From Sacculina carcini (lineage: Eukaryota > Arthropoda > Thecostraca > Sacculinidae): a DNA stretch of 64,000 nt. The DNA lies in contig OU696591.1 of NCBI GenBank assembly GCA_916048095.2, positions 7,165,499-7,229,498 of the forward strand, given 5' to 3'. Below are positions 918-57,361 of this stretch, one piece after another. Every line of letters begins with the position of its first letter. Within the stretch, counting starts at the first letter, position 1. A program made the translations under genes and the position numbers. The notes under the pieces are model-generated. The model worked only from the letters and a program-made list of their open reading frames with translations, did no database searches and was not told the origin of the DNA.

Positions 918-3900
918 TCAGACCTTATATTCAGTACTAATATATACAATATTATTAAGACAGTAATAAGACTTAGTGAGAAAGAAATTTTTAGTATGTT
1001 TTTTGAAAAGATATAGAGATTTGATTGAGCGTATTGAGGGAGAAAGCCTATTGTAGATACGAGGTCCTAAGATAGAGAAACAACGATTGTAGTGAGAATG
1101 CCTAGAAGGAAAGGAAGGTTCAACTAGTAGAAAAGGATCGTTAGAAGACCTAAGAGAAAGAGATGAGGTTTTATAAGACAGAAGGTCAAACAGATACGCA
1201 GGCTTACGAAGATAAAGAGCTGAATGAATAATTAAACAAATACGATACTCAACAAGAGCCTTAATGGGAAGTAACCTAAGTTTTTGTAAAGAAGAAGATA
1301 CATGAGAACCCGAAGGAAGATTAAATATCATACGACATGCTTTATTAATAATACATTGAAGTTTCCTAAGCTGGCGGTGGTTGAGAGATAGTAGAAGAGA
1401 ACAGCAGTACTGAGTTTTACTAAAGATGAATGAGTTAGCTAACTTAAAGGCAGCAGAGATGGTTATATATCTACGAATGGAATAGATACGCCTAAGTTGA
1501 TAGTTACAACACCTGATAATGTCGGATATGTGTGGATCAAAAGAAAGAGAGTTATCGAGTATGATACCAAGACTACGTACAGAGCAGGATAGAGGTATAC
1601 TAAGAGAAGTAGTACTATTAGAAGATGGAAAGAGAATATACTTAGTCTTATCAGGATTAAGTTTGAGATGACGAGTGAACGCCCATCTTTCTATATCAGA
1701 TAGGATGGTACTAACTGAAGAGTGAGAAATAGACTCAGACGAGAGAAGGATTTGAATGTCGTCAGCGAATATTTGGAAGGACACATCGTGACGACGAAGA
1801 ACTTTCCCTACAGAGGTAAGATACATATTGAAGAGGAGAGGGCCTAAGACAGAGCCTTGAGGTACACCACAAGTTAGTGGGCAAGCCTCACTACAAGAAT
1901 CAGCAGAGGTAGAAACAAACTGAAGTCTATTAGAAAGATAAGAGCGAAAGAAAGAGAGAGCTGTGCCGCTAATGCCTAAATCTAACAGAGTATCAATAAG
2001 AAGCAGATGATTAACAGTGTCAAATGCAGCAGAGAAGTCTAGTTGTATAAGTAGAACATCATTACCAGAGAGAGTAGATTTGACAATAGAATCATAGAGA
2101 AAAATGAGAGAAGTTTCAGTAGAGTGAAAGTGCCGGAAGCCAGACTGCTCAGCAAGAAACAAATTGTTAGATTCAAGATATTCGGATATCTGTATGTAGG
2201 CAGCCATTTCAAGAACCTTAGACAGCCAAGGAATTCTAGAGATTGGTCGATAGTTAGAAAGCGTGTTAGCATCCAGACCAGATTTCTTAAGTATAGGGAG
2301 AATACTGGCAGTTTTAGATGCAAGAAATTCCCCAAGAGTGAAAGAAGCATTGATGAGATTAGCTAAGAAAGGAAGGAGCAATTCAATGGAGTGAGGAATC
2401 CTGGAAAGATCAATGGGGTCGAGAGATGAAGAATGGATTTTAACATGCCTTAAAATAGTTCTACAGTCAGAAAGGGTAACTAAAGTAAAAGAGTGAATAA
2501 CAGAGGAGGGTAAGGGCGGAGAGTATAATGGTAGAGCAGCAGGGAACAAGCAACGAATCTTATCAATTTTAGACTGGAAGAAATTCATAAATATGGAAGG
2601 TAACTGATCAGAAGCAGAATCTGGGAAAACAAGACTACGGGAATTACCTAAAATACTGTCAAAAAGCTTCCAAAGTTTCTTAGAATTGAGACAGGAAGAA
2701 ATTTTAGAATTATAGTAAGATTTTTTGGCGGAATCACAAAGAAGATGATGATGACGGCGGGCAGAACAGAAAGATTGCCAGGAAGAGTCAGTCTTGAGAC
2801 GACGCCATTGGCGCTCAAGCCGACGAAGGGAGGTTTTTGAATTTTTAATATCAGAGTTATACCAAGGACAGCGAGTATTAGTGGAACGAAAGACTTTAAT
2901 AGGAATAAAGGTTGATTTGAGAGAATCGAGGGATGAGTTAAAGTATCCTAAGAGAGAATTAGGAGGTATATGAACGAAACATTCAGTAGCAAAAGACAAA
3001 TGCATATTGACATAAAGAGAGTCCAAATCAGCGTTACGATAATCCGAGAAACTAATAAGTTTGGGAGATTTGTAAGTGATAGGGAGGCGGGCAGAAAATT
3101 CAACTAATGAGTGATCAGAAATGAAGGAATCAATAGGAAAAACAGTGAGATCTCTAATAAGAATAGTAGAATCGGAGAAAGAAAGGAGGAGATCAAGTGT
3201 GTGACCGTGAACATGAGTAGGGCAGCAGATATGATTACAAAGACCTAATGAATCGATTAATTGTAAAAACATAGAAGAACAAGACTTGAGATGAGGCGCA
3301 TCAACCCAAAGGTTGAAGTCACCACAAATCACTATTCTAGAAGAAAAAATTGGAAGAAGTGTGTCTATAAGAGAAGAAAACTCATCAAGAAAAATTGAGG
3401 AAGAGAAAGAATTAAGACGATATATGTTGACAATACATACAGGCAGAGTAGTTTTACCTATTACTTTACAACAGATGTATTCAAATGACTTAATAGGAAT
3501 TTCTACACTACATAGATAGGCATTAATGATGTTAGAATTATAGACAAAAGAAACACCACCGCCAGAGCATTTAGTAGGATTAGATACATTCAAAGGGCGA
3601 CAATTATGAAAAGCTGAGTAGCCAGCAGGAAGAGAGCGGTCAAAGGAGGATATTTCAGCAACAGAGAGCCATGACTCAATAATCAGAAAAATATCATACT
3701 TAGGAAGGATGGACGCAAAAAGTGATATTTTAGACCTAATAGACCTGAAATTCAAGAAAGCACATTTTAATAAACCAATTGCATTATTAGATTTAGAACG
3801 AGAAATAATAGAAAATGAGTCAGAGAGAGAAGAAAGACACTTATCAGCGAGAAGAAAGACACTTATCAGCGGATGAAGTGCTGATTGAAGGAAGCAGAAC

Positions 3901-3965
3901 TGAAGATCCAGTATCTATTTCCGAAGTCAACTGCTGAGCACAGTCAGTCAGGCCGGAGGTCACAT
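918..3965 (-). pseudogene. LINE (CR1/L2-type) ORF2: endonuclease-reverse transcriptase
   Basis: Open from about 3840 down to 918, over 950 residues. Near the start an apurinic-type endonuclease is visible (IRSKISLF, then GDFNLWVD near residue 145 of the main frame), then a reverse transcriptase with SGFRHFHSTETSL, LDFSAAFDTVNH, GVPQGSVLGPLLF and the catalytic FADDIQ. The C-terminus has the short Cys/His-rich tail usual for the group (RRIYSIRRY, NKACRMIF). It would nick target DNA and prime cDNA synthesis there. The region linking it to ORF1 is frameshifted by a perfect 22-bp tandem duplication at 3827-3870; without this shift, an upstream frame that overlaps ORF1 would join it. The catalytic part itself is open. 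Family level is confident, clade less so. Confidence 0.9.
3827..3870. repeat. 22-bp perfect tandem duplication in ORF2 leader
   Basis: The unit GAGAAGAAAGACACTTATCA plus GC occurs twice head to tail (3827-3848, 3849-3870). 22 is not a multiple of three, so the ORF2 frame is shifted at its N-terminus. Confidence 0.9.
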
Positions 3966-6537
<2,572 letters not shown>

Positions 6538-6607
6538 TGCACACCAAAACCATGCGCTCACAGACAAGTGGTTCCCAATTCCATCACACTCCCTCTTGAT
6601 ATTAAGA

Positions 6608-8248
6608 TCAATGATCATCACTTTCCAGCACGTAATCTTGAAACCTAATCGGCTGTCTTCTCACTCTAGAAGATCTGCGAGGTATGTCATCAGAACCACT
6701 CGTTTCCATGTGTGCATTTTCCGTTGCAGAGCTTCCAGCATTTTCACCTACTACAGGCCTCAAGTCAGTCAAATGTCTCGGTACGCCATCTACTGAAATG
6801 TTGTTTTGAGACTGAATCCCAGTCACTGTTCCTTGCGACCAATGGGATGTGCATCTGGCAGGCACAGGCTTGACCCAGACTTCGTCGCCAATTTTAACTT
6901 TTATTCCGCCTTGTGTGTCATCTATGCTGGGCATAGCTCTGGGATGACGCCATATATAAGTGTAGACATGACGTTGCGGTGCGCTCTCTTCTTGCTGTCC
7001 GTTCTTTGCAGCTGCGTTATACCAGAACACAGCTGTCAACGGAGACACGTTTGTTTTTTCTGACATTCTTTTTATTGTCCGATGATGTCTTTCGATAATC
7101 CCATTTCCACTCGGGCGGTATGCCGCTCTATAAAAGCTGCCAACATTCCATCGCTTCAGCATTTCTCGGAACAAGGCCGACCTGAATATTGTGCCGTTAT
7201 CCATCAGGACTTGGTCTACTGGTCCACGCTCTAGAAACACACTTTCCAAAATCGCTGATACTTCTTCTGCCGTTTCCATTCTTAGTTCCCGCCACAGAGC
7301 AAATCGGCCCGGGCCGCAATCTATCATGGTCAAATACCCGTGGTGTCTGAAATGAGTCACGTCGACTGCTAGTCGGCTCCAGTTAGTCGACACGTGGAGC
7401 ACACCCGGTTCATGTCCTACAGGAGCCGGATCGTTGGACTGACACTGCACGCAATGTCTTACTACGTTTTCTACTTGCTCCCGTGATACTCCAGGGTCCA
7501 CCTTCTTTGAGAGGAACAGTGATCGCTCGACTCCCATATGATGTAAACAATGTAAATCCTTGACCTGCTCCATTGTTACACCACACAATCCGCCATACCG
7601 TTCAGTAGCAAGCTCTCGTTTCCAGTCTTTTTTAACTCGCGTCAACAGATCAGCTTTGTTAGCAGCGGTCGCTACGAGAGAAATGTTCACGCTCAAACTC
7701 AGTTCATTTACTAAATCTTTGATGATACCGAGCCGGCGCTTTATCAACACTTCAGCAGCTCCTTTTGTTCTCACCCTTCTCTCACATGTCAATGTTGACT
7801 GGAGCCAGCCAGCCAATGTTGAACAGTCAGTGCGTATATCAATTTTATTCAATCCCCACTTCAACGCCAGGTTCAGTCCTCGGGACACTGCCTCCAGTTG
7901 CGCAGCATTAATATGTGCAAATTCACTTTTCTTTCGTTGCCACGACGCATCTTCCACTAAAACACCATCCACGTCTACAGCCGCTCCGATGACTAAATTG
8001 CTGGCGTCGCACCATATCACACCGGCTTTGGTATCCGACACCACCCATTTCCCCTTCACCGGATCTTCGCCTCTGGTCCGATTCAACATTTCCTCAGTCA
8101 TATCCGAAACAGCACGAGGCACTGGATCATCCCAGTCCCAAGATGAGGCTTGTCGTTTTGTAAAACTGCACGCTGGTCTAAGCCATCCTGCTATGGGGTA
8201 ATCCGGGATTCGGCATCTCGTTTCCTCTGCGAAATTCCAAGACACCAT
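6608..8248 (-). pseudogene. Gypsy-A pol: RNase H and integrase
   Basis: The frame opens with the last bases of the RT connection (YPIAGWLRPACSFTKR). RNase H follows (VIWCDASNLVIGAAV, AAQLEAVSRGLNLAL, IRTDCSTLAGWLQ), then an integrase with the zinc-binding region (HHMGVERSLFL...CVQCQS) and the catalytic core (RLAVDVTHF, LMDNGTIFRS, GNGIIERHH). The C-terminus has GDEVWVKPVPARC and an Arg-rich tail. It is colinear with Gypsy-B (20178-21320) at clear but moderate identity. The RT-RNase H junction has lost roughly 18 residues and changes frame near 8216, so the polyprotein is not functional. The RNase H and integrase part itself has no stop. Ty3/gypsy-like domain order; sublineage not recognised. 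Confidence 0.85.
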
Positions 8249-8466
8249 TCTGATTCATTTGCACTTTCAGACCGAGTACACTGCCACCATCAATGGACGC
8301 TGGCTCCTTTGCCGCAAGTCCGTACAACTTCAGATGTCGGACCACTTCACTGGCCTCGACTTTCGACGTGTCGTCAATGATGTCGTCTACGTATGAATCA
8401 GTGGCGTTTGCTATTCTCTCTGATTTATCCAAGACACTGCGTAGAATTCTTGTTCGGGAATGTGTA
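8178..8466 (-). pseudogene. Gypsy-A reverse transcriptase remnant
   Basis: Encodes RTRILRSVLDK and SYVDDIIDD, the RT catalytic box, then IDGGSVLGLKV and LEFRRGN, matching Gypsy-B RT around 21900-22050. The upstream half of RT and the protease are missing; the sequence turns into unrelated CA-rich DNA at about 8467. Non-functional. Confidence 0.8.
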
Positions 8467-10368: not shown

Positions 10369-12574
<2,206 letters not shown>

Positions 12575-13209
12575 TTAATTATGATCGGCAACGATAGGTA
12601 TCAGTGGAGGTAGATTCATATTCCAAGCACTGCGAAGCAGATTTCCACCGGTTTCATAGATATACTGCTCAGCATGGGTCAAGTAATTTTCCTGTTGCAG
12701 ATCGTCGCTGATGATATCATTCACGAGATTATTCAGATAATTGCTGGTTTCGTTCAACGTCGTCGCAAATTCTTCGTTGGGATTGAATGTCAGTATCTTA
12801 TTCATGAGGGCGCAGTGATGCATAGCTTCTCGAATGTTCCTGCGCCGTTCATAAATCAAGACTCTGTGTTGTCCAATAAGCAAGCCTGTAGCATTCATCA
12901 TCATATCCACATATTGAGCAGTGATTAGCGTCTCAACTCTGTCCTGCGGCCCCGCCGTTTGTACGTATCCATTCAGAACGTGCCGAAAATCATCCAGTTC
13001 AGTATACACGATGGGTTTCTGTTGGCTCACTAGTTGGTTAATCCATTGCAGATTACGAATTTGAGGCAAGGCTACGATGAAGAGCCATTCGTAGGCGTTT
13101 TTCTCCTGAACGGGATTCAGAGACTGCACTTTACTGCTTGCCGAAATATACACCTGTACATCAGCATTCACTAATTAGTTTGAATTTCAATTTTGCGCTT
13201 GTTGCATGG

Positions 13210-13278
<69 letters not shown>

Positions 13279-13604
13279 TTAGTTTCACTTAACATATTTA
13301 ATTGAATAATATATTATTCCTTGCTGAATACTTTTTCAATTCTTTATTAATTAACTTTCATCTTCCTGACTTAAACATTCACTTTTCGAACTCTCTATCC
13401 ATACATATTTTGGTTTGTTTCCAGTACACATGGGGTCACCACACAGGGTGGTATTAGTGCACTTGCACTCTTCCCCCATGCTACTGAATTTGCCTGTAAT
13501 TAATATTAATAGTAATAATAATCTTTAATAGGACGATATGAATTAATTATATCCTCACTTACCAGAAATACCAGCAGCAAGCGGGACGTGGTTGCAAATT
13601 TCAT
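12575..13604 (-). CDS. Secreted protein, copy A (two coding exons, signal peptide)
   Basis: Coding exon 1 is 13563-13604 ([14 protein letters not shown]) and ends at CTG|GTAAGT. A 409-bp phase-0 intron (13154-13562) ends TGATGTACAG, and exon 2 is 12575-13153, starting [12 protein letters not shown]. Together the codons give 206 residues. The first 25 or so form a signal peptide split by the intron (basic start, LLLVFLVYI core), so the product should be exported. The mature part is acidic to neutral, helix-like and nearly Cys-free (one Cys), with possible N-glycosylation sites NAT and NET. I recognise no family. Copy B (48008-50055) has the same architecture and signal peptide (R8 to H) but a mature part sharing only scattered residues: LQW..Q near the start of the domain, NYLN/NYMN, LTHAEQ/LTEAER. 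The open frame amid decayed elements argues for a functional gene. Confidence 0.75.
13154..13562 (-). other. Intron 2 of secreted-protein gene A
   Basis: GT..AG intron between the signal-peptide exon and the mature exon. It contains a TA array (13212-13274). Near the acceptor stands CTAAT, a plausible branch-point core about 25 nt before the AG. Confidence 0.75.
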
Positions 13605-13681
13605 TTTGATTCGAGAAGGTGATGTAGAATACCTCTGTGGCAACACAACACAACAATGTATCAGCAGTGAATATGACAATA

Positions 13682-14122
13682 CAGTAAAAACCCTCTTATC
13701 CGGCATCCGAGTATCCGGAACATTTTCCCCGAGTTGGTACTCTGAAATGATTCGCACCATTGAAACCACTAAGTTGAAAATTATGTTGGAAACCACTGGC
13801 CAATCAAAGCTCACTGTCTGATGAATACACTACTGGGTTGAAAAACGCTGAAATTCAGGTGAACATATTGTCCACACGTTGTTTTGATGCGTTATTGAGA
13901 AGTGAACATATTGACCACACCTTTAGCCCCACTCACAGGTCTTTGTACGGCTCTGAATATAAGCAGAATCTGCGGCTCTGAATACAGCAGTATTGTATCA
14001 GCTGATCTTTGTTATGGTAAGATGCGTGAGTGTAGGGTGGTGATTGTGGACATAATTTTGCTTCTATTCAAGTATCCGGCATGTCGGCGGTCCCGTTGAT
14101 GCCGGATAAGGGGCTTTTACTG
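13682..14122. mobile_element. Tigger/pogo-like MITE in the 5' UTR intron, copy A
   Basis: Terminal inverted repeats start CAGTAAAA and end TTTTACTG, with TTATCCGGCAT inside both ends, flanked by TA target duplications (13680-13681, 14123-14124). 441 bp without transposase. The centre has GTGAACATATTGNCCAC motifs shared with the foldback at 18289. The same insertion is in copy B (50133-50574), so it predates the duplication. Confidence 0.85.
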
Positions 14123-14347
14123 TATCTCTCACAAATGCTCAAATACACATACAGACGACTGGATGTGTGAAAGGCAAGCTCAAGTGACAGCTGCTTCACG
14201 GGAAGAAGCCGAAGCTTATGAACACACACAGGTGTGTCCCGTGCAGCTCGCTGCCACCGCAGAAATGACTATATACATACTTGACTAAATGACATACTTC
14301 AATAGATGACTATATACATACGTGATACTATGGCAAAGATGGCATAC

Positions 14348-14382
14348 CTGCGTGTAGAATGGCCGAGTGCTGCGAGTGAACT
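14348..14382 (-). other. Candidate 5' UTR exon of secreted-protein gene A
   Basis: Inferred start at the A of ACAGTT (14382), 33 nt after the TATA start; ends at ACGCAG|GTATGC (14348). It would splice to TTGCCACAG|AGGTATTC at 13634, so exon 13563-13634 holds 30 nt of leader and the first 14 codons. All three signals are kept in copy B (50800-50834 and 50014-50085). Confidence 0.55.
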
Positions 14383-14407
14383 GTCTACGTGGCTCTGTTG
14401 GGGTGCT

Positions 14408-14415
14408 CTTATATA
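14408..14415 (-). promoter_or_regulatory. TATA box of secreted-protein gene A
   Basis: TATATAAG on the minus strand, about 33 nt before an arthropod-like initiator (ACAGTTC). About 15 bp upstream, at 14430, begins CAGAGGCGTAGCCAGG, which looks like an hAT-type terminal repeat, so upstream control DNA may be transposon-derived. Same arrangement in copy B. Confidence 0.6.
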
Positions 14416-14720
14416 GACTTTTCTGGTGTCAGAGGCGTAGCCAGGCTGTCTGTCGCGGGGGGAGAAATTTATGCCCCCCATGTATGCTAGCCGGTCACTT
14501 AGCCGCACGAGACTGTGCCAGCCTTAACATGACTGTAATAGGGAATTAGTCCATATGTCGGACTTTTGGAATCGCTTCTGTCACGTGCAGCGCGCGTGCT
14601 GCTGTCCGCTGCTTGTTTTCGCCCACTCGCGAAGGCATATCCAGAAATATCCGGCTTGAACCGGCTGCAGTCTGTACGAGCTGGATATTGTGTAAGTCAT
14701 GTGCTTGGCACATGACTGTG

Positions 14721-14886
14721 CGCGGTGGCTTAGAAATACCTGGAAAAAACATCAAAACAACTGTGTGTGGAAGTCATGTGCTTGGCACATGTGTGCAGCT
14801 GCAGTTTGCAAAATTCGCGTGCCAAGCACATGACTTCCACACACAGTTGTTTTGATGTTTTTTCCAGGTATTTCCAAGCCACCGCG
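14721..14886. repeat. Palindrome, 68-bp arms, 30-bp loop (copy A)
   Basis: Arms 14721-14788 and 14819-14886 are reverse complements with one mismatch (A at the TTAGAAA site). The outer ends begin CGCGGTGG and CCACCGCG. In copy B (51173-51338) the arms are perfect. No coding content; a foldback MITE or hairpin-RNA source. Confidence 0.9.
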
Positions 14887-15054
14887 TCTAAAGATAGAAC
14901 CTTTTGTGGCGTAGTGTAAAAACACAGCACATATATATATACAGAAAACACATATTTTACATGAATATATTATATGTCAGCTGTTTTTTGTTGTAGTCAC
15001 TTTAGGGCACACATGGAATAATGAGGTTCCAAATTGGTTTCGTTTCATTCGTAT

Positions 15055-16335
15055 CATTTGTGGGTATAAACTATAGCTTATCTTGTAGAACACAAAATTA
15101 TCTACACAGTAGTATATTCCTGTGTAATCGCAAATGCGCATAATAGCTGTCAAATTGGCAATATGTGCTTTTGACTTTACACAGCCGTAACTTCCTTCAG
15201 ATACACTTTGGAAAATTAAAAATTATACCGTATTGTAGAAAACAAGATTTCTAGCACGATGGTATAATTTATTTTTATGTGCAACAAATAGAAACTGAGA
15301 AATAGTCAAAAAATGAATAAATTTTAGTCGCCCAGTGTTCAAGTGTAATTTTGGATGTATTTGAGAATTTTGCCAATTTTACACATTTTTTGTTTCATTT
15401 GTGGATATAAATTATAACTTATCTTGTAGAACGCAAGATTATCTTCACAGTAGTATATTCCTGTGTAATCGCAAGTGCGCATAATAGCTGTCAAATTGGC
15501 AATATGTCCTTTTGACTTTACACCGCCGTAACTTCCTTCAGATATACTTTGGAAAATTACAAAATATACCGTATTGTAGAAAAATAGATTTCTAGCACGA
15601 TGGTATAATTTATTTTTATGTGTGACAAACACTTCCTGAGAAATAGTAGAAAAATGAATAAATTTTAGACGCCCGGTGATCAAGTGTAATTTTGGATGTA
15701 TTTGAGAATTGTGCCAATTTTACACGTTTTTTGTATCATTTGTGGGTATAAATTATAACTTTTATTGTAGAACACAAAATTATCTACACTATTGTATATA
15801 TTTTATAGCTGTACCATTGCTGGTTTATGAGGAATAGATAGCGGAATATTGACCAAAATATTAACGTTTTTGTGTGCTAATTTTGCTTTTTGGACTTTGT
15901 CATTTACACTTTACACCGCCGTAACTTTTTTTAATACACTTTGGAAAATTAACAATTATACCGTGTTGTAGCAAACAAAATTCCCAGCATGATGGTATTA
16001 TTTATTTTGATGTGTGATAATTAGTTTTTGAGAAATAGAGAAAAAAGTATAGAAAATCGGACGCGTGGAGTTAAAATAAAATTTTGAATGTAGATTTATT
16101 TTTTTTCCATTTTACATAATTCACATTTAATTTTTGGGTATAAATTATAATTTTTTGAGTAGAACAGAACATTTTCTACACATTGGTATAATTTTTATAG
16201 TTGTACCATTGCTGGTTTAGGAGGAGTAGTCTTCAGAAAATTGACCAAAATTTTCGCATTTTTCAGGGTTCATTTTGTTTTTTCACCGCTATAACATATT
16301 TTGGTTTCTACAAATTTTTAGCGGGTACGCCAAGT
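15055..16335. repeat. Four degenerate tandem units of about 340-390 bp (copy A)
   Basis: Units start at about 15062, 15409, 15744 and 16137, each with a GTGGGTATAAANTATA-like start, TTGTAGAACACAAAATTATC, a CGCCGTAAC segment and TTATTTTTATGTG. They end in AGCGGGTACGCCAAGTGATG. AT-rich and without coding potential; equivalent in copy B at about 51512-52785. Confidence 0.8.
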
Positions 16336-16432
16336 GATGGCCAAGTAGCAGCTGATAGAAAATGGACCAAGAAGGGTGGGACAGACAGACTCACACACAC
16401 ACAGCCACACAGAGGATCTCTTTTATATATAT

Positions 16433-16481
<49 letters not shown>

Positions 16482-18108
16482 GCGGGTTGAGGGATAATAT
16501 TTGTATATAAAAATATTAACATTTACACTTTTCTATTGTTCAAGATATATATAGGTTACATTTTTTGCTTTTCAATTTGTGTTCATTATATTTTATGGAT
16601 TTAATATGAATTTTATTGTATGAATTGTTCCGCACGACGGGCAGGTTTAAAAGCAAGTGTTTCCATTTTTTAGTTCGTTTTTTCAAATGGTTTTATTTAA
16701 AAAATGTTAATTTTGCGATGAAAAAATGACTAAGGCGGACTGAGGGGAAATATTTAGTCGAAATAAAAATAATTAAGCTTAGAATTTTCAATCGTTTAAT
16801 ATTTTTAAGAGTGTACCCTATTTCATTTTTAATTTTCTATATTTTTATTAATTGAATATGAATTTCATGTTATGAATTGCTCCGAACAACGGGTTTAATG
16901 GGCGGGCGGGTTTCATGCTAGTATATATATATATATAAAACAGATCCTCTGTCTGTGTGTTCGTTTGTCTGTCCCACCCTCTTATCAATATTTACACCTC
17001 AATTGTTCCGCACGACGGGCGGATAAAATGTTACTGGGAACAAAGTAAACTACTGAATATTACTGTGTAATTTAATTGGTTAAATTTCAAGATGCATAAG
17101 CATATGAGTTGAAATATCATGTATACATACTGTTAACATATTTACAGGATATTGTACATATGATATTTACAATGCAGGATATTTACAGGATTTCTTGCCA
17201 TATAATTTGTATTAATTTTCTTTTATGGATTGAATTTACATTTTATTTTATTAATTTTTCCGCACGACGGGCGGGTTCAAATGTACTTATATAAAAGGAA
17301 TTATCTGTCTGTGTGTGTATGTTTAAATACGAAGTGACATAACTGCGCGGGCTCAGTGGTATAGATCAGGGACTTTAAACGTAAACGAAGCGATGTTTAT
17401 GAAATAAAAATGTCCCGGGGCAGCAACTATAGACAATAGAACGTTCAATTTCATCGTGTAGAATGAATTCATATACAAAACTACCGGATTTGACTTCAAG
17501 ATCCAGAACAGATCGTGTTCGAGTTCTGAATTATTCCGCACGACGGGCGGGTTTGAATATGAGGAGGGCTGAGGGAGAATATTTTGTTAAAATTGAAATA
17601 AAAATTAAGTAGACGTGCAGCGTTGTCTGGCCACAAACCAGATCCAAAGCTGCATACCCCCAATTCGGCCTTGATATCCTAAACCAACTACACATTATGG
17701 ACAGATTACATAAGAGGGTAAAGAAGAAGCAAAATGATGAAATAATATGGGACCAGAAGATACACATAGCAATAAGTTATAATGCTTTTATTGTCTAGTA
17801 CCTCACACACAAGCTCAACCCGACACAAACTCAACCCCTAGTTAGTGATCATTTCTTGACGTAACCTAACCTAAATGTCTAGCATATAAATGTAGCAGCA
17901 CCAAATATAGCGCGTACAAAACTATGTGTATTGGTGGCTCGTAACAATGCAACTGGTGGTAATGATAGAACTGAATGAAAGCTGACATGACACACACTGA
18001 ACACACAGACATACCGTTACATGCATGCACACAAGTTAACTTGACACCCACACACAGACACACAACACACAGACATACAACTGCATCCATACACACGCAT
18101 GTCTCATA
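16336..18108. mobile_element. Cluster of Helitron-like 3' ends and TA arrays (copy A)
   Basis: The motif TTCCGCACGACGGGCGGGTT recurs at about 16628, 17003, 17258 and 17541, with a degenerate form at 16880. The CCGC..GCGG part can fold into a small hairpin, and at 16918-16921 CTAG follows it, then T, as in Helitron termini (hairpin, about 10 nt, CTRR, insertion next to T). TA arrays stand at 16433-16480. No Rep/helicase is seen, so these would be non-autonomous, partly tandem copies. 17340-17525 is an inverted copy of 19139-19330. No gene is visible. Confidence 0.5.
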
Positions 18109-18109
18109 C

Positions 18110-19119
18110 AGACGATTGGCTATTACTGGCAGCCAGTGGTCTTCAACCTCAGACCGGCCACATCCCCCCCTCAGGTGCTGTGCTCCGACTGCATGAAGCG
18201 GCGAGGCGGTCGCACGGGTCTGGAGCGCCGAGACTATACGATGCGAGCGGGATGTTGTGCACCGGTAGACGAACCTGAAGGGATCTAGTACAATATTGCC
18301 CTATGAACATATTAGCCACAAATGCCCGAGTACTCTCTTACTCTGCGATAGGGCAATATTTTCACCTCGGCCAGTGTAGTGTCAAAAGCGTAGCAAGTGC
18401 GGTGAGTGCGACTGCGGTTTGTGGCCAATATGTTCACTTTTCACCATAGCGTAATTTCAGTGGTTTTCAACACAACGCACGAGTTTGTTTACAACAGTAC
18501 TGTACTGTGCGGTTATTGATTAGGTTAGGTTAGGTTGGTCAGGTTAGGTCAAGTTTGGTTAGGTCAGCTTACTCAACCTAGCCAATAACCACGCACAGTG
18601 CGTTAGGTGCTAGTCATCTGTTGTATACGAACTCGTGCGTTGTGTTGAAAACCACTGAAATTACGCTATGCTGAAAAGTGAACAAATTGGCCACAAACCG
18701 TAGTCGCACTCACCGCACTTGCTACGCCTTTGACACTACACTGGCCGAGGTGAACATATTGCCCTAATTCAGAGTATGGGAGTACTCGGGCATTTGTGGC
18801 TAATATGTTCATAGGGCAATATTGTAGTACTCCCACCTGAATCAGCCGGTTCAGTCGTGGGAGTGGACGCTGAAACCGCGGTAGAATCGGGCGGTGAGTT
18901 GACAACATCACCTGGCGGATCTTGTTCAGCTCTTTCCAGATGTGCCGGCTTGAGCCTGTCGATGGCCACGACGTCTGGTTTACCACGATTGTCTATTGTG
19001 AATGCCTTGTCGTCACGCTGCAGCACGGCGTAGGGACCCTGGTAAGGTGGTGTCAACGGGGTCCTGTGACCGTCGACCCGGACGAAGACGTGGGAGGCCT
19101 TGTTCAAGGTTTGAGACAC
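18110..19119 (-). pseudogene. C-terminal fragment of a gypsy-type pol, split by a foldback
   Basis: Section 18827-19119 encodes HVFVRVDGHRTPLTPPYQGP and a following VLQRDDKAFTIDNRGKPDVV, ending AIDRLKPAHLE: the GPY/F module of Ty3/gypsy integrases that contacts DNA or chromatin. After the foldback, 18180-18288 continues with a basic tail (SRRSRPVRPPRRF). No other part of this element is here, and its sequence does not come from Gypsy-A, B or E. The same fragment is in copy B (55906-56198). Confidence 0.75.
18289..18826. mobile_element. Foldback element with TTAGG-like loop (copy A)
   Basis: Ends TACAATATTGCCCTATGAAC and its inverse at 18807-18826; the arms run almost to the centre (about 240 bp each). 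The apex holds ATTAGGTTAGGTTAGG and related GGTTAGGTC units. It splits the pol fragment above. No open frame of note. Copy B: 55368-55905. Confidence 0.85.
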
Positions 19120-19745
19120 GAATGGTTTGTGGTTTGTGGATCGTGTCGATCCGTTCTGGATCTTGAAGACAAATCCGATAGTTATGTATAAGAATGCATT
19201 CTACACGGTGAAATTGAACGTTTTATTGTCTATAGTTGCTGTCAGCGGGACATATTTATTTCATAAAAATGATCCATCGTTTCTTTTACGTTTGAAACCA
19301 CTGATCTATATCATTGAGCCCGCGTAGTTATTTTAACATCATATTCAAGCATTCATACACACACAGACAGACAGATAATTTCTTTCATATATATAGATTT
19401 ATACCCGCCCGTCGTGCGGAACAGCTCATAACATGTAATTCATATTCAATCTATAAAATAAAATGAATACAAATTAAAAAGTATAAAATTTAACCTGTAA
19501 ATATGCTATCCAATAGAAATGTCTAAATGTGAATATTTTAATTTTAATTTGGACAAAATATCCCTCGATCCGTCTCATATATGAACCTGCCCGTCGTGCT
19601 GAATAATTCAGAACTCAGACACAAAACAATGAAAAATGACCAAAGTTTTTCATTACGAGCGAGCGATAGCGAGCGAGTTCATACTTGGTGTTACTAGAAA
19701 AATGAGTATAAGCGGCCCGCCGGCCGGTCCGCCGGCCGTGGTGAC
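19120..19745. other. Helitron-like remnant, no gene
   Basis: 19139-19330 is an inverted copy of 17340-17525. ACCCGCCCGTCGTGCGGAAC, the inverse of the Helitron-like 3' motif, is at about 19404, and a variant at 19585. Homology with copy B stops at about 19678 (B: 56750). A GC-rich CCGGCC cluster lies at 19712-19738. Confidence 0.6.
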
Positions 19746-41153: not shown

Positions 41154-41388
41154 TGTATGGTGCTGGTCTGGCATCATCAGTAGCGGGGAAGCGATAATGA
41201 CGCGAGAGCGACATTCACTGTGGAGGCGTGTTTTGGGATTGTGGTCGTTGGAGATTCATGCGATGTGATTGAGATATTTCTGAGTTATTCCGGTGGTTTT
41301 GTGGTTAGTTAATTTGACTAAGTTCGTTACCGTTTATATCAATATATTCAGTTGTGTTATTGGGTTGTTTGATCGTAATAACATAACA
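41154..41388 (+). repeat. Element E 5' LTR
   Basis: Begins TGTATGGTGCTGG, ends ATAACATAACA. No TATA-type promoter is obvious except TTTATATCAATATA near the end. Confidence 0.95.
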
Positions 41389-45870: not shown

Positions 45871-46105
45871 TGTATGGTGCCGGTCTGGCATCATCAGTAG
45901 CGGGGAAGCGATGATGACGCGAGAGCGACATTCACTGTGGAGGCGTGTTTTGGGATTGTGGTCGTTGGAGATTAATGCGATGTGATTGAGATATTGCTGA
46001 GTTATTCTGGTGGTTTTGTGGTTAGTTAATTTGACTAAGTTCGTTACCGTTTATATAAATATATTCAGTTGTGTTATTGGGTTGTTTGATCGTAATAACA
46101 TAACA
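45871..46105 (+). repeat. Element E 3' LTR
   Basis: Second copy of the 235-bp LTR, preceded by the purine tract and followed by TACAC. Confidence 0.95.
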
Positions 46106-46110
46106 TACAC

Positions 46111-47818
46111 CATTCTCTATAGTGAAATTCAGAGACTAGTCCTTGCTTCCTGAAAATACAGAGATCCAGATGGCGTTGATGTAGTCTGGGGCTCAATTAG
46201 TGCAACTGCCCACTTTATCAGCATCAATGACACCTGAGCAAACACACTCGCATGCAATACGAACACGTATGCATGTGTGTGTGCGTGTCGGTGTGTCAGT
46301 GTGATTGAGTGTCGAACAGCTTGATGTAGTGTTTGAGCAGAAATGATCAATCAATCTTGCTCTGTAACAAAATTGATTGGTACAACATGAATTGAGCTCT
46401 CTATTGAAAATGGCCTCGGGCAATATTTCAATGCGGTTTTTGTCGCCAGTCAACCCGCGTCTCGTAACCTCGTTGTCAACATATTGGGAATATTATTACA
46501 AACTTATTAAATATAAACTGATTTTTAACCGCAAATCAACCGTAAGCGGCTATCAAAAACCAGCAGTCAAACAAAGCCAAATTATAATTACATTGTAAAA
46601 ATATTTCTCACAAATATGCCGTTTTAAGCGAAAAAACATAAAATGTTATTTTCACTGAAAATATTGTTCAAATATATAATTCTATAGATGGCGCCCGGAA
46701 TTTATATATTCTGTTAATAATTGTAATAGCACAGATCACGGATTCAACATGTTATGATATACTCAAACACTGCATAAATGTACAGCAATGTTCCTGATAG
46801 ATTTTCAAGTAGAGATAACATGTGAGTACCACGGTGTTATAACCCTGGTTAACTACCGCATTTGTCCTGCGGTCAGGGATAAGAATACTGCCGCCGTACC
46901 CGCTGCGTGTCGTGTAAGAGGCGACTAAAAGCGGACCATCTGCTTCTTCTCTTCCTGTACTGCCATGTCCGATGGGGGAGCGATAATACAACAGGCACCC
47001 CCCTTGGATTACTGCAGCTGTCTTCTGTCCTATCCTACCTGAAATATAAAAAACTACCGTATGGGTTGTGACGGTGGTTTATTTGTTGTAATTCAATCGC
47101 TCCAAACTAGGTTATCGTGCCATTGGTCTTTTGGTAAGGTAGGATTATGCATACGTGTATTTCATATTTAAATTTTCGGGAAATTATTCAACGCAAATTG
47201 CTAAAATGGTGTATGTATTGTCAAGCTCAAAGGGGTTGAAGGAGTTCAATGTTAAATCGAATTTTCTCAGAAAAACATGTCTGATGATACAGTATGTTTT
47301 GTGTTGCATGGGAGAAAAACGTGTCCGCTTGTCACAAGTCGCAGCTCGAACAACACAACAAATCTGCTGCTCACTATAAAAACATCAAATGCAACTATAC
47401 ATGCAGAATCGAATCATTAGATTATTGCGCCTCGAAGTAAAATTCTCGAATGGTACCACTACCAAGGGGCAGCACCAAGGGACAGGGGATGTAGGGGCTC
47501 CACCCCCACCCCAATGTGAATCTCTTGTTTATGAGGAGTTGATAGAAACATTTGTGGTCTTCAACCATCTGAGCTCCTTCTGGATCCATCAGTGTGTATC
47601 TTTAAAAAACGCATATAAAAATGTATATATTATGTGTTCCAATACGCAGTGCACGTGCATTAAAATACACATGGATTTGTGATTATTGAAACACGATATA
47701 ATTTCCTGTTTATTTTCTCCCAAAATGTATTTATACATGTATACACCCAGATAGATATAAATATATATATAGATATATAGATAGATATATAAATATATAG
47801 ATATATAGATAGATAAAT

Positions 47819-47887
<69 letters not shown>

Positions 47888-47892
47888 TAGAC

Positions 47893-47923
<31 letters not shown>

Positions 47924-48007
47924 GCGGTTTAGAAGCAGACTTCAAATAGTGCCATTGCATACACCGGGATATAGCATAATATAGTGATGTAAAACTAGAA
48001 AACTGAA
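46111..48007. other. Intergenic part of copy B, no gene
   Basis: Matches 10676-12574 in copy A. Contains the block with GTAAGAGGCGACTAAAAGCG (about 46910) and TA/TAGA arrays (47750-47925). No supported coding region. Confidence 0.75.
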
Positions 48008-50055
<2,048 letters not shown>

Positions 50056-50132
50056 TTTGATTCGAGAAGGTGGTGTAGTATACCTCTGTGGCAACACAAC
50101 ACAACAATGTATCAGCAGTGAATATGACAATA

Positions 50133-50574
50133 CAGTAAAAACCCTCATATCCGGCATCCGAGTATCCGGAACATTTTCCCCGAGTTGGTACTCTGAAATG
50201 ATTCGCACCATTGAAACCACTAAGTTGAAAATTATGTTGGAAACCACTGGCCAATCAAAGCTCACTGTCTGATGAATACACTACTGGGTTGAAAAACGCT
50301 GAAATTCAGGTGAACATATTGTCCACACGTTGTTCTGATGCGGTATTGAGAAGTGAACATATTGACCACACCTTTAGCCCCACTCACAGGTCTTTGTACG
50401 GCTCTGAATATAAGCAGAATCTGCGGCTCTGAATACAGCAGTATTGTATCAGCTGATCTTTGTTATGGTAAGATGCGTGAGTGTAGGGTGGTGATTGTGG
50501 ACATAATTTTGCTTCTATTCAAGTATCCGGCATGTCGGCGGTCCCGTTGCATGCCGGATAAGGGGCTTTTACTG
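50133..50574. mobile_element. Tigger/pogo-like MITE, copy B
   Basis: Same insertion as 13682-14122: CAGTAAAA..TTTTACTG, TA flanks (50131-50132, 50575-50576), in the 5' UTR intron. Confidence 0.85.
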
Positions 50575-50799
50575 TATCTCTCACAAATGCTCAAATACAC
50601 ATACAGACGACTGGATGTGTGAAAGGCAAGCTCAAGTGACAGCTGCTTCACGGGAAGAAGCCGAAGCTTATGAACACACACAGGTGTGTCCCGTGCAGCT
50701 CGCTGCCACCGCAGAAATGACTATATACATACTTGACTAAATGACATACTTCAATAGATGACTATATACATACGTGATACTATGGCAAAGATGGCATAC

Positions 50800-50834
50800 C
50801 TGCGTGTAGAATGGCCGAGTGCTGCGAGTGAACT
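50800..50834 (-). other. Candidate 5' UTR exon of secreted-protein gene B
   Basis: Same start (ACAGTT), donor (ACGCAG|GTATGC) and downstream acceptor (before 50085) as in copy A. Confidence 0.5.
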
Positions 50835-50859
50835 GTCTACGTGGCTCTGTTGGGGTGCT

Positions 50860-50867
50860 CTTATATA
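50860..50867 (-). promoter_or_regulatory. TATA box of secreted-protein gene B
   Basis: TATATAAG on the minus strand; surroundings identical to copy A for at least 60 bp, including the hAT-like CAGAGGCGTAGCCAGG at about 50882. Confidence 0.55.
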
Positions 50868-51172
50868 GACTTTTCTGGTGTCAGAGGCGTAGCCAGGCTG
50901 TCTGTCGCGGGGGGAGAAATTTATGCCCCCTATGTATGCTAGCCGGTCACTTAGCCGCACGAGACTGTGCCAGCCTTAACATGACTGTAATAGGGAATTA
51001 GTCCATATGTCGGACTTTTGGAATCGCTTCTGTCACGTGCAGCGCGCGTGCTGCTGGCCGCTGCTTGTTTTCGGCCACTCGCGACGGCATATCCAGAAAT
51101 ATCCGGCTTGAACCGGCTGCAGTCTGTACGAGCTGGATATTGTGGAAGTCATGTGCTTGGCACATGACTGTG

Positions 51173-51338
51173 CGCGGTGGCTTGGAAATACCTGGAAAAA
51201 ACATCAAAACAACTGTGTGTGGAAGTCATGTGCTTGGCACATGTGTGCAGCTGCAGTTTGCAAAATTCGCGTGCCAAGCACATGACTTCCACACACAGTT
51301 GTTTTGATGTTTTTTCCAGGTATTTCCAAGCCACCGCG
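51173..51338. repeat. Perfect palindrome, 68-bp arms (copy B)
   Basis: Arms 51173-51240 and 51271-51338, loop 30 bp. The one mismatch of copy A is absent, so either A mutated or B was corrected. Confidence 0.9.
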
Positions 51339-52886
51339 TCTAAAGATAGAACCTTTTGTGGCGTAGTGTAAAAACACAGCACATATATATATACAGAAAA
51401 CACATATTTTACATGAATATATTATATGTCAGCTGTTTTTTGTTGTAGTCACTTTAGGGCACACATGGAATAATGAGGTTCCAAATTGGTTTCGTTTCAT
51501 TCGTATCATTTGTGGGTATAAACTATAGCTTATCTTGTAGAACACAAAATTATCTACACAGTAGTATATTCCTGTGTAATCGCAAATGCGCATAATAGCT
51601 GTCAAATTGGCAATATGTGCTTTTGACTTTACACAGCCGTAACTTCCTTCAGATACACTTTGGAAAATTACAAATTATACCGTATTGTAGAAAACAAGAT
51701 TTCTAGCACGATGGTATAATTTATTTTTATGTGCAACAAATAGAAACTGAGAAATAGTCAAAAAATGAATAAATTTTAGTCGCCCAGTGTTCAAGTGTAA
51801 TTTTGGATGTATTTGAGAATTTTGCCAATTTTACACATTTTTTGTTTCATTTGTGGATATAAATTATAACTTATCTTGTAGAACGCAAGATTATCTTCAC
51901 AGTAGTATATTCCTGTGTAATCGCAAGTGCGCATAATAGCTGTCAAATTGGCAATATGTCCTTTTGACTTTACACCGCCGTAACTTCCTTCAGATATACT
52001 TTGGAAAATTACAAAATATACCGTATTGTAGAAAACTAGATTTCTAGCACGATGGTATAATTTATTTTTATGTGTGACAAACGGTTCCTGAGAAATAGTA
52101 GAAAAATGAATAAATTTTAGACGCCCGGTGATCAAGTGTAATTTTGGATGTATTTGAGAATTTTGCCAATTTTACACGTTTTTTGTATCATTTGTGGGTA
52201 TAAATTATAACTTTTATTGTAGAACACAAAATTATCTACACTATTGTATATATTTTATAGCTGTACCATTGCTGGTTTATGAGGAATAGATAGCGGAATA
52301 TTGACCAAAATATTAACGTTTTTGTGTGCTAATTTTGCTTTTTGGACTTTGTCATTTACACTTTACACCGCCGTAACTTTTTTTAATACACTTTGGAAAA
52401 TTAACAATTATACCGTGTTGTAGCAAACAAAATTCCCAGCATGATGGTATTATTTATTTTGATGTGTGATAATTAGTTTTTGAGAAATATAGAAAAAAGT
52501 ATAGAAAATCGGACGCGTGGAGTTAAAATAAAATTTTGAATGTAGATTTATTTTTTTTCCATTTTACATAATTCACATTTAATTTTTGGGTATAAATTAT
52601 AATTTGTTGAGTAGAACAGAACATTTTCTACACATTGGTATAATTTTTATAGTTGTACCATTGCTGGTTTAGGAGGAGTAGTCTTCAGAAAATTGACCAA
52701 AATTTTCGCATTTTTCAGGGTTCATTTTGTTTTTTCACCGCTATAACATATTTTGGTTTCCACAAATTTTTAGCGGGTACGCCAAGTGATGGCCAAGTAG
52801 CAGCTGATAGAAAATGGACCAAGAAGGGTGGGACAGACAGACTCACACACACACAGCCACACAGAGGATCTCTTTTATATATATAG

Positions 52887-52917
<31 letters not shown>

Positions 52918-55367
52918 GCGGGTTGAGGGATAATATTTGTATATAAAAATATTAACATTTACACTTTTCTATTGTTCAAGATATATATAGGTTACATTTT
53001 TTGCTTTTCAATTTGTGTTCATTATATTTTATGGATTTAATATGAATTTTATTGTATGAATTGTTCCGCACGACGGGCAGGTTTAAAAGCAAGTGTTTCC
53101 ATTTTTTAGTTCGTTTTTTCAAATGGTTTTATTTAAAAAATGTTAATTTTGCGATGAAAAAATGACTAAGGCGGACTGAGGGGAAATATTTAGTCGAAAT
53201 AAAAATAATTAAGCTTAGAATTTTCAATCGTTTAATATTTTTAAGAGTGTACCCTATTTCATTTTTAATTTTCTATATTTTTATTAATTGAATATGAATT
53301 TCATGTTATGAATTGCTCCGAACAACGGGTTTAATGGGCGGGCGGGTTTCATGCTAGTATATATATATAAAACAGATCCTCTGTCTGTGTGTTCGTTTGT
53401 CTGTCCCACCCTCCTATCAATATTTACACCTCAATTGCTCCGCACGACGGGCGCATAAAATGTTACTGGGAACAAAGTAAACTACTGAATATTACTGTGT
53501 AATTTAATTGGTTAAATTTCAAGATGCATAAGCATATGAGTTGAAATATCATGTAATGTCAACTTCATGCATATGCTGTTTTAGCGGAAGCATTCACCTG
53601 GAATCATAGAGATGACAGAAAGTTTCGTTGTTTTGATAGTGTTAAAATTTTTATTCACCACGCACGAACGACGGGTTTAAATTTAAGGAGTGTTGAGGGG
53701 AAAATTCCGTCAATAATTTAAACAGGTTAGGTTAGGTAATTTACAAATATATATTTTTCTATTGGTCAAGCTTTTTGCTGTTTTTCATTTTATTTTAATA
53801 GTCGTTCCGCACGACGGGCGGGTTCAAATATGAGGCTGTTCGAGGGAAAATATTTTGCCACATATAAAATAAAAACATTCATATTCAGACTTTTCTATCG
53901 GTTAATAGTGTTTATGGGTTAAATTTTTTCTATTTAAATTTGTATTAGTTTGCATTTATGAATTCAATATATATTTCATTTTATTAATTGTTCCGCACAA
54001 CGGGCGGGTTTCAATGCTAGATGGTGATGTTAAGTTATAAATATATTTTGGAAACATTATGATGAAAAAGATCAGTCAAATTTCATTGTTTTTTGTCTTG
54101 TGTCTTTTGAGTTCTGAATTATTCCGCACCACGGGCAGGTTCATATATGAGGCGGGATGAGGGATTATATTTTGTCAAAATTAAAATTAAAATATCCACA
54201 TTTTGACATTTCTATTGGTTAACATATTTACAGGATATTGTACATATGATATTTACAATGCAGGATATTTACAGGATTTCTTGCCATATAATTTGTATTA
54301 ATTTTCTTTTATGGATTGAATTTACATTTTATTTTATTAATTTTTCCGCACGACGGGCGGGTTCAAATGTACTTATATAAAAGGAATTATCTGTCTGTGT
54401 GTGTATGTTTAAATACGAAGTGACATAACTGCGCAGGCTCAGTGGTATAGATCAGGGACTTTAAACGTAAACGAAGCGATGTTTATGAAATAAAAATGTC
54501 CCGGGGCAGCAACTATAGACAATAGAACGTTCAATTTCATCGTGTAGAATGAATTCATATACAAAACTACCGGATTTGACTTCAAGATCCAGAACAGATC
54601 GTGTTCGAGTTCTGAATTATTCCGCACGACGGGTGGGTTTGAATATGAGGAGGGCTGAGGGAGAATATTTTGTTAAAATTGAAATAAAAATTAAGTAGAC
54701 GTGCAGCGTTGTCTGGCCACAAACCAGAGCCAAAGCTGCATACCCCCAATTCGGCCTTGATATCCTAAACCAACTACACATTATGGAAAGATTACATAAG
54801 AGGGTAAAGAAGAAGCAAAATGATGAAATAATATGGGAACAGAAGATACACATAGCAATAAGTTATAATGCTTTTATTGTCTAGTACCTCACACACAAAC
54901 TCAACCCGACACAAACTCAACCCCTAGTTAGTGATCATTTCTTGACGTAACCTAACCTAAATGTCTAGCATATAAATGTAGCAGCACCAAATATAGCGCG
55001 TACAAAACTATGTGTATTGGTGGCTCGTAACAATGCAACTGGTGGTAATGATAGAACTGAATGAAAGCTGACATGACACACACTGAACACACAGACATAC
55101 CGTTACATGCATGCACACAAGTGAACTTGACACCCACACACAGACACACAACACACAGACATACAACTGCATCCATACACACGCATGACTCATACAGACG
55201 AGTGGCTATTACTGGCAGCCAGTGGTCTTCAACCTCAGACCCCCCCCCCTCAGGTGCTGTGCTCCGACTGCAAGAAGCGGCGAGGCGGTCGCACGGGTCT
55301 GGAGCGCCGAGACCATACGATGCGAGCGGGATGTTGTGCACCGGTAGACGAACCTGAAGGGATCTAG
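51339..55367. other. Copy B: tandem 340-bp units, Helitron-like ends, no gene
   Basis: The four degenerate units (about 51512-52785), TA array (52885-52912), and the CCGCACGACGGGCGGG motif at about 53064, 53440, 53806, 53992 (CACAACGGG form, followed by CAATGCTAG), 54345 and 54626. 53555-54220 is absent from copy A, whose joining point falls between two such motifs. Nothing codes. Confidence 0.65.
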
Positions 55368-55905
55368 TACAATATTGCCCTATGAACATATTAGCCACAA
55401 ATGCCCGAGTACTCTCTTACTCTGCGATAGGGCAATATGTTCACCTCGGCCAGTGTAGTGTCAAAGGCGTAGCAAGTGCGGTGAGTGCGACTACGGTTTT
55501 TGGCCAATATGTTCACTTTTCACCATAGCGTAATTTCAGTGGTTTTCAACACAACGCACGAGTTTGTTTACAACAGTACTGTACTGTGCGGTTATTGATT
55601 AGGTTAGGTTAGGTTGGTCAGGTTAGGTCAAGTTTGGTTAGGTCAGCTTACTCAACCTAGCCAATAACCACGCACAGTGCGTTAGGTGCTAGTCATCTGT
55701 TGTATACGAACTCGTGCGTTGTGTTGAAAACCACTGAAATTACGCTATGCTGAAAAGTGAACAAATTGGCCACAAACCGCAGTCGCACTCACCGCACTTG
55801 CTACGCCTTTGACACTACACTGGCCGAGGTGAACATATTGCCCTATTGCAGAGTATGGGAGTACTCGGGCATTTGTGGCTAATATGTTCATAGGGCAATA
55901 TTGTA
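55368..55905. mobile_element. Foldback element (copy B)
   Basis: Same as 18289-18826; TACAATATTG ends, TTAGG-like apex at about 55600-55650. Inserted in the pol fragment before the duplication. Confidence 0.85.
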
Positions 55906-56198
55906 GTACTCCCACCTGAATCAGCCGGTTCAGTCGTGGGAGTGGACGCTGAAACCGCGGGAGAATCGGGCGGTGAGTTGACAACATCACCTGTCGGATC
56001 TTGTTCAGCTCTTTCCAAATGTGACGGCTTGTGCCTGTCGATGGCCACGACGTCTGGTTTACCACGATTGTCTATTGTGAATGCCTTGTCGTCACGCTGC
56101 AACACGGCGTAGGGACCCTGGTAAGGTGGTGTCAACGGGGTCCTGTGACCGTCGACCCGGACGAAGACGTGGGAGGTCTTGTTCAAGGAAGGAGACAC
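55906..56198 (-). pseudogene. Gypsy-type integrase C-terminal fragment (copy B)
   Basis: HVFVRVDGHRTPLTPPYQGP to AIDRHKPSHLERAEQDP, equivalent of 18827-19119. Continues across the foldback at about 55250-55367. Confidence 0.75.
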
Positions 56199-57361
56199 GA
56201 ATGGTTTGTGGATCGTGTCGATCCGTTCTGGATCTTGAAGACAAATCCGTTAGTTTTGTATAAGAATGCATTCTACACGGTGAAATTGAACGTTTTATTG
56301 TTTATAGTTGCTGTCTGCGGGACATATTTATTTCATAAAAATGATCCATCGTTTCTTTTACGTTTGAAACCACTGATCTATATCATTGAGCCCGCGCAGT
56401 TATTTTAACCTCATATTCAAGCATACATACACACACAGACAGATAGATAATTTCTTATATAGATATAGATTTAAACCCGCCCGTCGTGCGGAACAGTTCA
56501 TAACATGTAATTCATATTCAATCTATAAAATAAAATGAATACAAATTTAAAAGTGTAAAATTTAACCTGTAAATATGCTATCCAATAGAAATGTCTAAAT
56601 GTGAATAATTTAATTTTAATTTGGACAAAATATCCCTCGATCCGCCTCATATAAGAACCTGCCCGTCGTGCTGAATAATTCAGAACTCAGACACGAAACA
56701 ATGAAAAATGACCAAACTTTTTCATTACGAGCGAACGATAGCGAGCGAGTTGACCTTCTCGCATCCATTTTACGCCTAAGGGACCAAGTTTCATCAAAAT
56801 CGGTCCAGTGGCTTAGGAAGAGATAGGGTACAAACAGACGTATAAACACTTTGCAATCAGTATAGGGCAAAAAAATACCATCAATCAGGACCTTCGGGCC
56901 TAATTGGATAAGCCAGAAATAAGAAAATGTGCGAAGCATTGCAAAACATAAAATTAAAGAAAATCTCACACACAAAAAACACCACAAGAAAACTCGTTCA
57001 TCTCTGTACACTGAATAACTCCATCCAGCACCAACACTCGACCAAACGTCTTGCTGTGGCGAATACATCCAAGCATAAAGACAGACACGCAAGTAGAGTA
57101 TATGAAATCCCAAGTATACGCTTGGGTTTGAAATATTCAAACATGAATACTCATAATATGTCATTTTAACACATGTAATTTTACAAAAATTGTATTGATT
57201 TTTACACGCATGCCATTTCATACATACATGGATAGCGAATGTATTATCTAATGTATTCCAGTCAGGCTTTGTATAATATAGTGTGATAGTGCCTATATAG
57301 AGCGCCACCTACGTGTCAAGAATCAATATATCTTGATATTCGGACTTTTCGTGATGGACAA
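56199..57361. other. Copy B intergenic, no gene
   Basis: Helitron-like remnant to about 56750 (inverse motif at 56475 and 56662). Then it joins sequence equivalent to 25903-26453 of copy A, so 6.2 kb of A is missing at the join. No coding region is supported. Confidence 0.7.

Follow-up and report, generated by a model that had tools for sequence, protein, structure and literature searches.

How can two copies of a gene keep much the same promoter, leader and flanks, and code for largely unlike proteins? For genes with fast-changing exons and slow-changing introns, explanations have so far invoked selection acting on the exon, homogenisation of all the rest or constraint on non-coding sequence, and their distant members are usually not alignable well enough to decide. 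In abalone sperm lysin, a protein with a helical fold, exons change faster than introns; in conotoxins and snake venom phospholipase A2, signal or non-coding parts are conserved and the mature parts change fast. Here, we analyse a pair of this type, genes A and B, within a 64,000-nt stretch of Sacculina carcini DNA (the window), together with their relatives in the genome. The silent sites within the diverged exon are a surviving clock, and for this family they favour youth and selection, with conversion second. We consider it likely that A and B are members of a gene family, young and expanding, for secreted and probably helical proteins, and that positive selection on point mutations and later gene conversion among the copies have shaped it.

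Anatomy of the gene pair

The features of both genes and of the duplicated blocks that contain them are as follows (window coordinates).

12575..13153, minus strand: gene A, mature exon, 192 codons plus stop; codons 1-12 conserved, remainder hypervariable
13154..13562, minus strand: gene A, intron 2, 409 bp
13563..13634, minus strand: gene A, signal-peptide exon including the end of the 5′ UTR; coding sequence 13604-13563; 16 copies genome-wide
13635..14347, minus strand: gene A, intron 1; inverted ends at about 13682-14122 enclose a MITE-like element
14348..14415, minus strand: gene A, TATA box (14415-14408) and 5′ UTR exon ending at 14348
48008..48604, minus strand: gene B, mature exon, 198 codons plus stop
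48605..50013, minus strand: gene B, intron 2, 1409 bp, of which about 950 bp are an insertion common only to B, F1 and F2
50014..50085, minus strand: gene B, signal-peptide exon MKFATTSHLLLVFL including the end of the 5′ UTR; coding sequence 50055-50014
50086..50799, minus strand: gene B, intron 1; the MITE-like element of gene A recurs at about 50133-50574
50800..50867, minus strand: gene B, TATA box (50867-50860) and 5′ UTR exon ending at 50800
10675..19679, no strand: duplicated block with gene A
46105..56751, no strand: duplicated block with gene B

The two blocks align in three long pieces that are 94.5, 97.9 and 97.5% identical (blastn). As an earlier note on this DNA had claimed, A and B share the TATA box, the UTR exon, the MITE-bearing intron (an assignment judged from the inverted ends alone) and the signal exon, and the splice sites are canonical in both. 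The signal exon codes for MKFATTS[RH]LLLVFL and is followed in both genes by a phase 0 intron. The likeness that the note had traced to codon 12 of the mature exon is indeed there, with one silent change; it then collapses, and near-identity returns directly from the stop codon into the 3′ flank, again as described. Its statement that the next intron carries few changes did not hold, with lengths of 1409 bp in B and 409 bp in A, the 950-bp insertion, and an 11% difference over the first 300 bp. That the mature-exon DNA hardly aligns is true of blastn but not of a comparison by codon, where positions 1, 2 and 3 differ at 59, 49 and 33%, as homologous exons do. We also considered the note's own possible refutation, a B exon derived from an unrelated gene or transposon, and found a homologous family exon instead.

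The note's description of almost every nearby transposon gene as broken was too strong: LINE- or gypsy-like ORFs, named by eye, are open at 918-3914, 35296-38025 and 41382-44771 of the window (998, 909 and 1129 aa). A (TG/AC)n array of about 1.4 kb at 5100-6600 produces long meaningless open frames, and an Rfam search of the window returned no match.

Family members across the genome

We searched the genome (264 Mb in 43 contigs, the window lying on contig C29) for copies of the MKFATTS exon, a collection that the earlier note had proposed, and found 16. Genome searches with mature proteins gave 14 matches to the A query, 10 to B and 18 to G1, one weak G1 match (32 query residues, with a stop) being excluded. 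The members are located as follows.

Contig C29: A, B, eight C copies and D; signal exon present
Contig C20: E; signal exon present
Contig C11: F1 and F2; signal exon present
Contig C16: G1 and G2; signal exon present
Contig C16: H1 and H2, added by the mature-protein searches; signal exon not found

The family comprises at least 18 genes on four contigs, and the open frames that had been reported for A and B extend to all 18 mature exons. With this many copies the A-B pattern goes well beyond chance. A single stop in the B-query matches to H1, H2 and G1 is a match overrunning their own stop codon. The copies on contig C29 are scattered over about 1 Mb, and the members as a whole are not clustered in short chromosome regions.

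A conserved promoter, UTR, signal exon and intron surround the hypervariable mature exon. The TATA and 5′ UTR block is nearly unchanged in all 14 genes of subgroups A to F, and a loose search finds a related block in G1 and G2. Between pairs of these subgroups the flanks and signal exon are mostly 88-98% alike, with shorter stretches at 73-86% (blastn); with the same program the mature exons remain unaligned in most pairs, aligning partly for C-E and weakly for C-D and B-F. Gene D has a LINE insertion just past its mature exon and an altered C-terminus. The shared block extends from about 1.1 kb upstream to 1.2-2.2 kb downstream; its 3′ flank matches gene loci at 90-100%, and part of it resembles a common repeat at about 80%. 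A transposon was considered as the mobile carrier of this block and rejected, with no terminal repeats visible by eye and with ends that lie mostly at simple repeats.

Two further ORFs on contig C16 were left outside the 18. Gene-like ORF I (locus L030, reverse strand, 7808-8347) shares the exon layout, ends similarly (RRLLPN) and matches the family profile marginally (E 0.024 in a 20-sequence file); it is perhaps an older relative of the family. ORF J2 gave a family-profile E of 1.1. On the opposite strand beside G1 and G2 (loci L029 and L030) lie two nearly identical ORFs, J, coding for a helix-like protein; one copy has an in-frame stop and the other is open. The G and H genes on this contig have an inverted arrangement, and long tandem arrays that read [CL]TSSL[SC]HVITVSRHH in all three frames adjoin them (loci L029, L030, L041 and L042).

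Silent-site divergence, exchange and rival explanations

We aligned 12 mature proteins by their residues only and then restored the codons. Six subgroup representatives (A, B, C7, D, E and F1) form 15 pairs with 18-45% protein identity, in which differences affect 51, 46 and 32% of first, second and third codon positions. At fourfold codon pairs that code for the same residue, the third base differs in 34 of 338; at pairs with a changed residue it differs in 57 of 293. The shuffled control has a mean of 75%, and sliding the alignment by one to three codons yields 75-83%. Because only residues entered the alignment, the fourfold third bases provide independent evidence of the exons' homology and youth. 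The same six subgroups differ at 265 of 404 fourfold third bases from the older G1 and G2, and at 162 of 508 from H1 and H2. A conserved overlapping frame was considered as the source of the third-base conservation and rejected: A and B have many stops in both remaining frames of the same strand, and no opposite-strand ORF of 120 aa crosses either mature exon. The mature exon of H1 is overlapped by an antisense ORF of 161 aa.

Using maximum-likelihood codon fits for 19 of the 66 possible pairs, we obtained an omega of 13 for A-B (dN 1.17, dS 0.089) and values between A-F subgroups from 3.3 (C7-D) to 24 (B-D). Lower values were found for G1-G2 (3.1), E-H1 (2.3), A-H1 (1.6), H1-H2 (1.2) and G1-H1 (0.76), the last three pairs lacking the excess. 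Across four alignment settings with near-gap columns removed, mean dN was 1.00-1.06 and mean dS 0.079-0.128, a ratio of means of 8.2-12.7, with single pairs having a dS near 0. A tree of seven sequences over 170 codons has an omega of 6.3 and rejects omega = 1 (2ΔlnL = 147), although the exact omega is uncertain because protein alignment at 18-45% identity is itself uncertain and a dN near 1 is saturated. The earlier note had called for dN/dS to be set against intron divergence; the outcome is an omega far above 1 and silent sites about as diverged as the intron. In the six genes, the opening 300 bp of intron 2 have diverged by 8.5%. Downstream, 500-bp pieces one and two of the 3′ flank have diverged by 7.0 and 6.2%, and two pieces of that size upstream by 4.2 and 3.2% (0.2-1.0% for A-B); a third downstream piece (14.5%) is not comparable, the shared block of E having already ended. 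Silent sites, intron and 3′ flank indicate similar ages. The 5′ flank appears to be younger or under constraint: it is less diverged than the silent sites, so that constraint or homogenisation acts on it.

The eight C exons, which are of equal length, vary at 41 sites in 34 codons, and the amino acid varies in every one of the 34. With a synonymous fraction of 0.23-0.29, the chance of no silent change among the 41 is 2e-5 to 7e-7. On average the C copies differ from one another by 3.5% in the exon and 0.7% in the intron, and by 1.9% in upstream and 3.0% in downstream sequence. The mature region is under positive selection, with H1-H2 excepted, and the low dS, the dN of about 1.0, the tree-wide omega and the 41 of 41 replacement sites in the C copies strongly support selection as the mechanism, one of two that the note had offered.

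The other, cassette conversion, survives in part, as exchange among young members of exon halves and of intron-plus-exon units; an old or foreign exon does not agree with silent sites whose divergence is as low as that of the intron. Of 595 informative site pairs in the C exons, 275 fail the four-gamete test, and two block patterns appear, at about codons 16-81 and 142-190. H1 and H2 code for identical protein over codons 32-130, with three silent changes, and carry 28 replacements and 5 silent changes outside it, both sides taken together. F1 and F2 differ by one base in their last 540 nt, and by a few residues just past the signal peptide. The insertion in intron 2 of B is shared with F1 and F2 and is absent from the other 13 of 16 introns; the mature exon of B is closest to F (support 0.95), and its flanks fall with those of A (5′ 0.95, 3′ 1.00). 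Because the flank and exon trees disagree and the insertion is shared, the intron-exon segment of the A/B pair and its flanks have different histories; consequently, part of the A-B exon difference predates the duplication of their block. The low silent divergence identifies the donors as young family members. The exons are mosaics among copies, as a repertoire fed by segmental conversion would have them, and conversion redistributes diversity that had arisen earlier, from point changes under selection.

Three other explanations bear on these data. If an old, separately evolved or foreign mature exon had been swapped into an otherwise unchanged gene, one would see the sharp borders at codon 12 and the stop codon and the failure of blastn across the exon; the B insertion, common to F1 and F2 in a gene whose flanks group with A, likewise indicates that an intron-exon segment changed partners within the family. 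Such an exon would, however, bring saturated silent sites into young flanks, and none were found: even at changed-residue codons the third base differs in 57 of 293 against 75% when shuffled. With an A-B dS of 0.089 beside an intron that is 11% different, only exchange among young members is left, and the low silent divergence refutes the old or foreign form, making this swap highly improbable as an account of the family. Relaxed constraint, in which dying copies drift neutrally and merely appear diversified, could draw on the repeat-rich surroundings of the copies and on D, with its LINE insertion and changed C-terminus, but we give it next to no credence. Drift would produce an omega near 1, against an observed 6 or more and none of 41 silent changes in the C copies, and it would hardly leave 18 of 18 mature exons open with promoter and splice sites kept.

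Concerted evolution deserves more weight and is still rather unlikely. Here the family would be old, with conversion homogenising flanks, promoter, signal exon and introns, and selection shielding the mature exon. The 5′ flank is less diverged than the intron and 3′ flank, conversion among the copies is evident, and the same argument has been published for the Hessian-fly SSSGP genes. Yet the silent sites, which alternate codon for codon with the replaced residues, have changed as little as the intron. Conversion could even them out without touching the positions beside them only if its tracts were one or two bases long. We therefore prefer a young family under point-mutation selection, and the course of events that it implies can be outlined. 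One unit, consisting of the TATA box, 5′ UTR exon, intron 1, signal exon, intron 2, mature exon and 3′ flank, would have been copied to at least three further contigs. Sustained positive selection would replace most residues of the mature protein through point changes, and the silent sites, intron 2 and 3′ flank would gain only the changes expected of recent copies. Gene conversion would shift segments, namely exon halves within the C cluster and intron 2 with the mature exon relative to the A/B flanks. Many unlike copies under one conserved promoter may then act jointly in a molecular arms race.

Predicted protein properties, precedents and putative role

The signal peptide predicts that the proteins are secreted. 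Thirteen mature proteins, taken from residue 8, have masses of 18.7-24.6 kDa and a pI of 4.7-9.5, and contain 0-1 Cys; a conserved cysteine framework of the conotoxin or three-finger kind is absent from them. Conotoxins and venom phospholipase A2 are disulphide-rich, in contrast to these Cys-poor sequences with helical predictions. AlphaFold models of A and B, built from two sequences each, are both poor (pLDDT 55.7 and 47.5). Both are all-helical, with helices at 14-66, 72-121, 127-154 and 160-180 in A, and at 12-66, 73-106, 108-121, 127-175 and 180-189 in B. The comparison of structures that the earlier note had suggested thus sets two poor models side by side, with similar helix limits. The family-mean hydrophobicity has amphipathic-helix periodicity in three of four helices (P 0.004, 0.0075 and 0.004; the fourth, 0.064), while single sequences are mostly without significant helical periodicity. 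Among eight representatives, the average number of residue types is 5.0 in polar columns and 3.2 in hydrophobic ones. These values fit a predicted helical core that is kept and a surface that is selected. Eighteen open genes, the kept signal exon, an omega well above 1, 0-1 Cys and the helical predictions bear out the note's overall reading of a fast-diversifying family of secreted, helical, Cys-poor proteins.

Searches with A, a 12-sequence profile and gene I found no protein at E ≤ 1 among 5.8 billion, by a method that requires short exact words and that fast relatives may escape. Pfam, NCBIfam and PDB gave nothing above the curated cut-off, lysin was absent among the Pfam or PDB matches, and Foldseek with the A model had no match at E ≤ 0.001. 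Fibroin light chain (PF05849) was considered and set aside, since it matched G1 only, at 19.2 bits against a cut-off of 27, and nothing in the genome exceeded that cut-off.

The closest precedent that we can name is the Hessian-fly SSSGP genes, by likeness of pattern rather than shown homology. As excerpts of PMC2955719 describe them, they too have several copies, in which promoter, UTRs, signal-peptide region and intron are conserved and the enclosed mature region is hypervariable; where pairs could be aligned, dN/dS exceeded 1, and a table gives values of up to 18.8; their authors could not align members below 80% identity and proposed homogenisation. According to the same excerpts, SSSGP members cluster in one short region, whereas the Sacculina copies occupy four contigs, and here distant exons align by codon and silent sites reveal recency. 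Plethodontid modulating factor (PMF), a salamander pheromone, resembles the present family in its many copies, positive selection and diverged isoforms with conserved UTRs (about 30% isoform identity and about 98% conserved UTRs, read as purifying selection, in the sections of PMC6487043 that treat them). PMF is a three-finger protein, unlike these predicted helical proteins with their 0-1 Cys, and here intron and 3′ flank evolve like silent sites (compared with the same sections of PMC6487043). Abalone lysin and sp18 are likewise secreted, duplicated paralogues; they are few, against at least 18 genes here, and one sp18 pair was too diverged and saturated for a dN/dS estimate, as far as the relevant part of PMC9022041 goes. 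In our literature searches, covering titles and abstract openings and three papers further, we recognised no publication that describes this family. Genes of this kind are already known; what we did not find in that literature is a protein family datable by its silent sites at this protein divergence, with copies on four contigs. The same silent-site test is applicable to SSSGP, venom and pheromone families.

The coexistence of unlike copies under one promoter suggests a repertoire more than a single lock-and-key pair. An exocrine arsenal, for example of venom, saliva or pheromone, is the putative role that we favour, with modest confidence; reproductive recognition is a possible but doubtful alternative, and immunity is less probable again. 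If the tissue is a gland, this would be a new protein family among arms-race secretions. More tentatively, the family may be a self-renewing repertoire, in which almost all surface positions of a helical bundle would be under diversifying selection and segmental conversion would recombine exon halves and carry intron-plus-exon units between loci on different chromosomes, yielding largely unlike proteins under one control sequence. If true, this would perhaps be among the fastest whole-protein adaptive divergences measurable by a silent-site clock in the same exon.

We also made some side observations on the genome. TTAGG repeats and cuticle domains mark it as that of an arthropod, and probably not of a winged insect: a search run without a positive control gave no genome match to the 7tm_6 odorant receptor or Orco. 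COX1 was likewise looked for without a match. A 30-mer of TTAGG has 9572 and 10209 genome matches and a 30-mer of TTAGGG has none; TTAGG repeats also occur as short chromosome-internal arrays, for example at C1:4307583-10881739. The chitin-binding cuticle domain has 94 genome matches, and 20 similar cuticle-protein (Chitin_bind_4) matches are clustered at C30:335968-429085.
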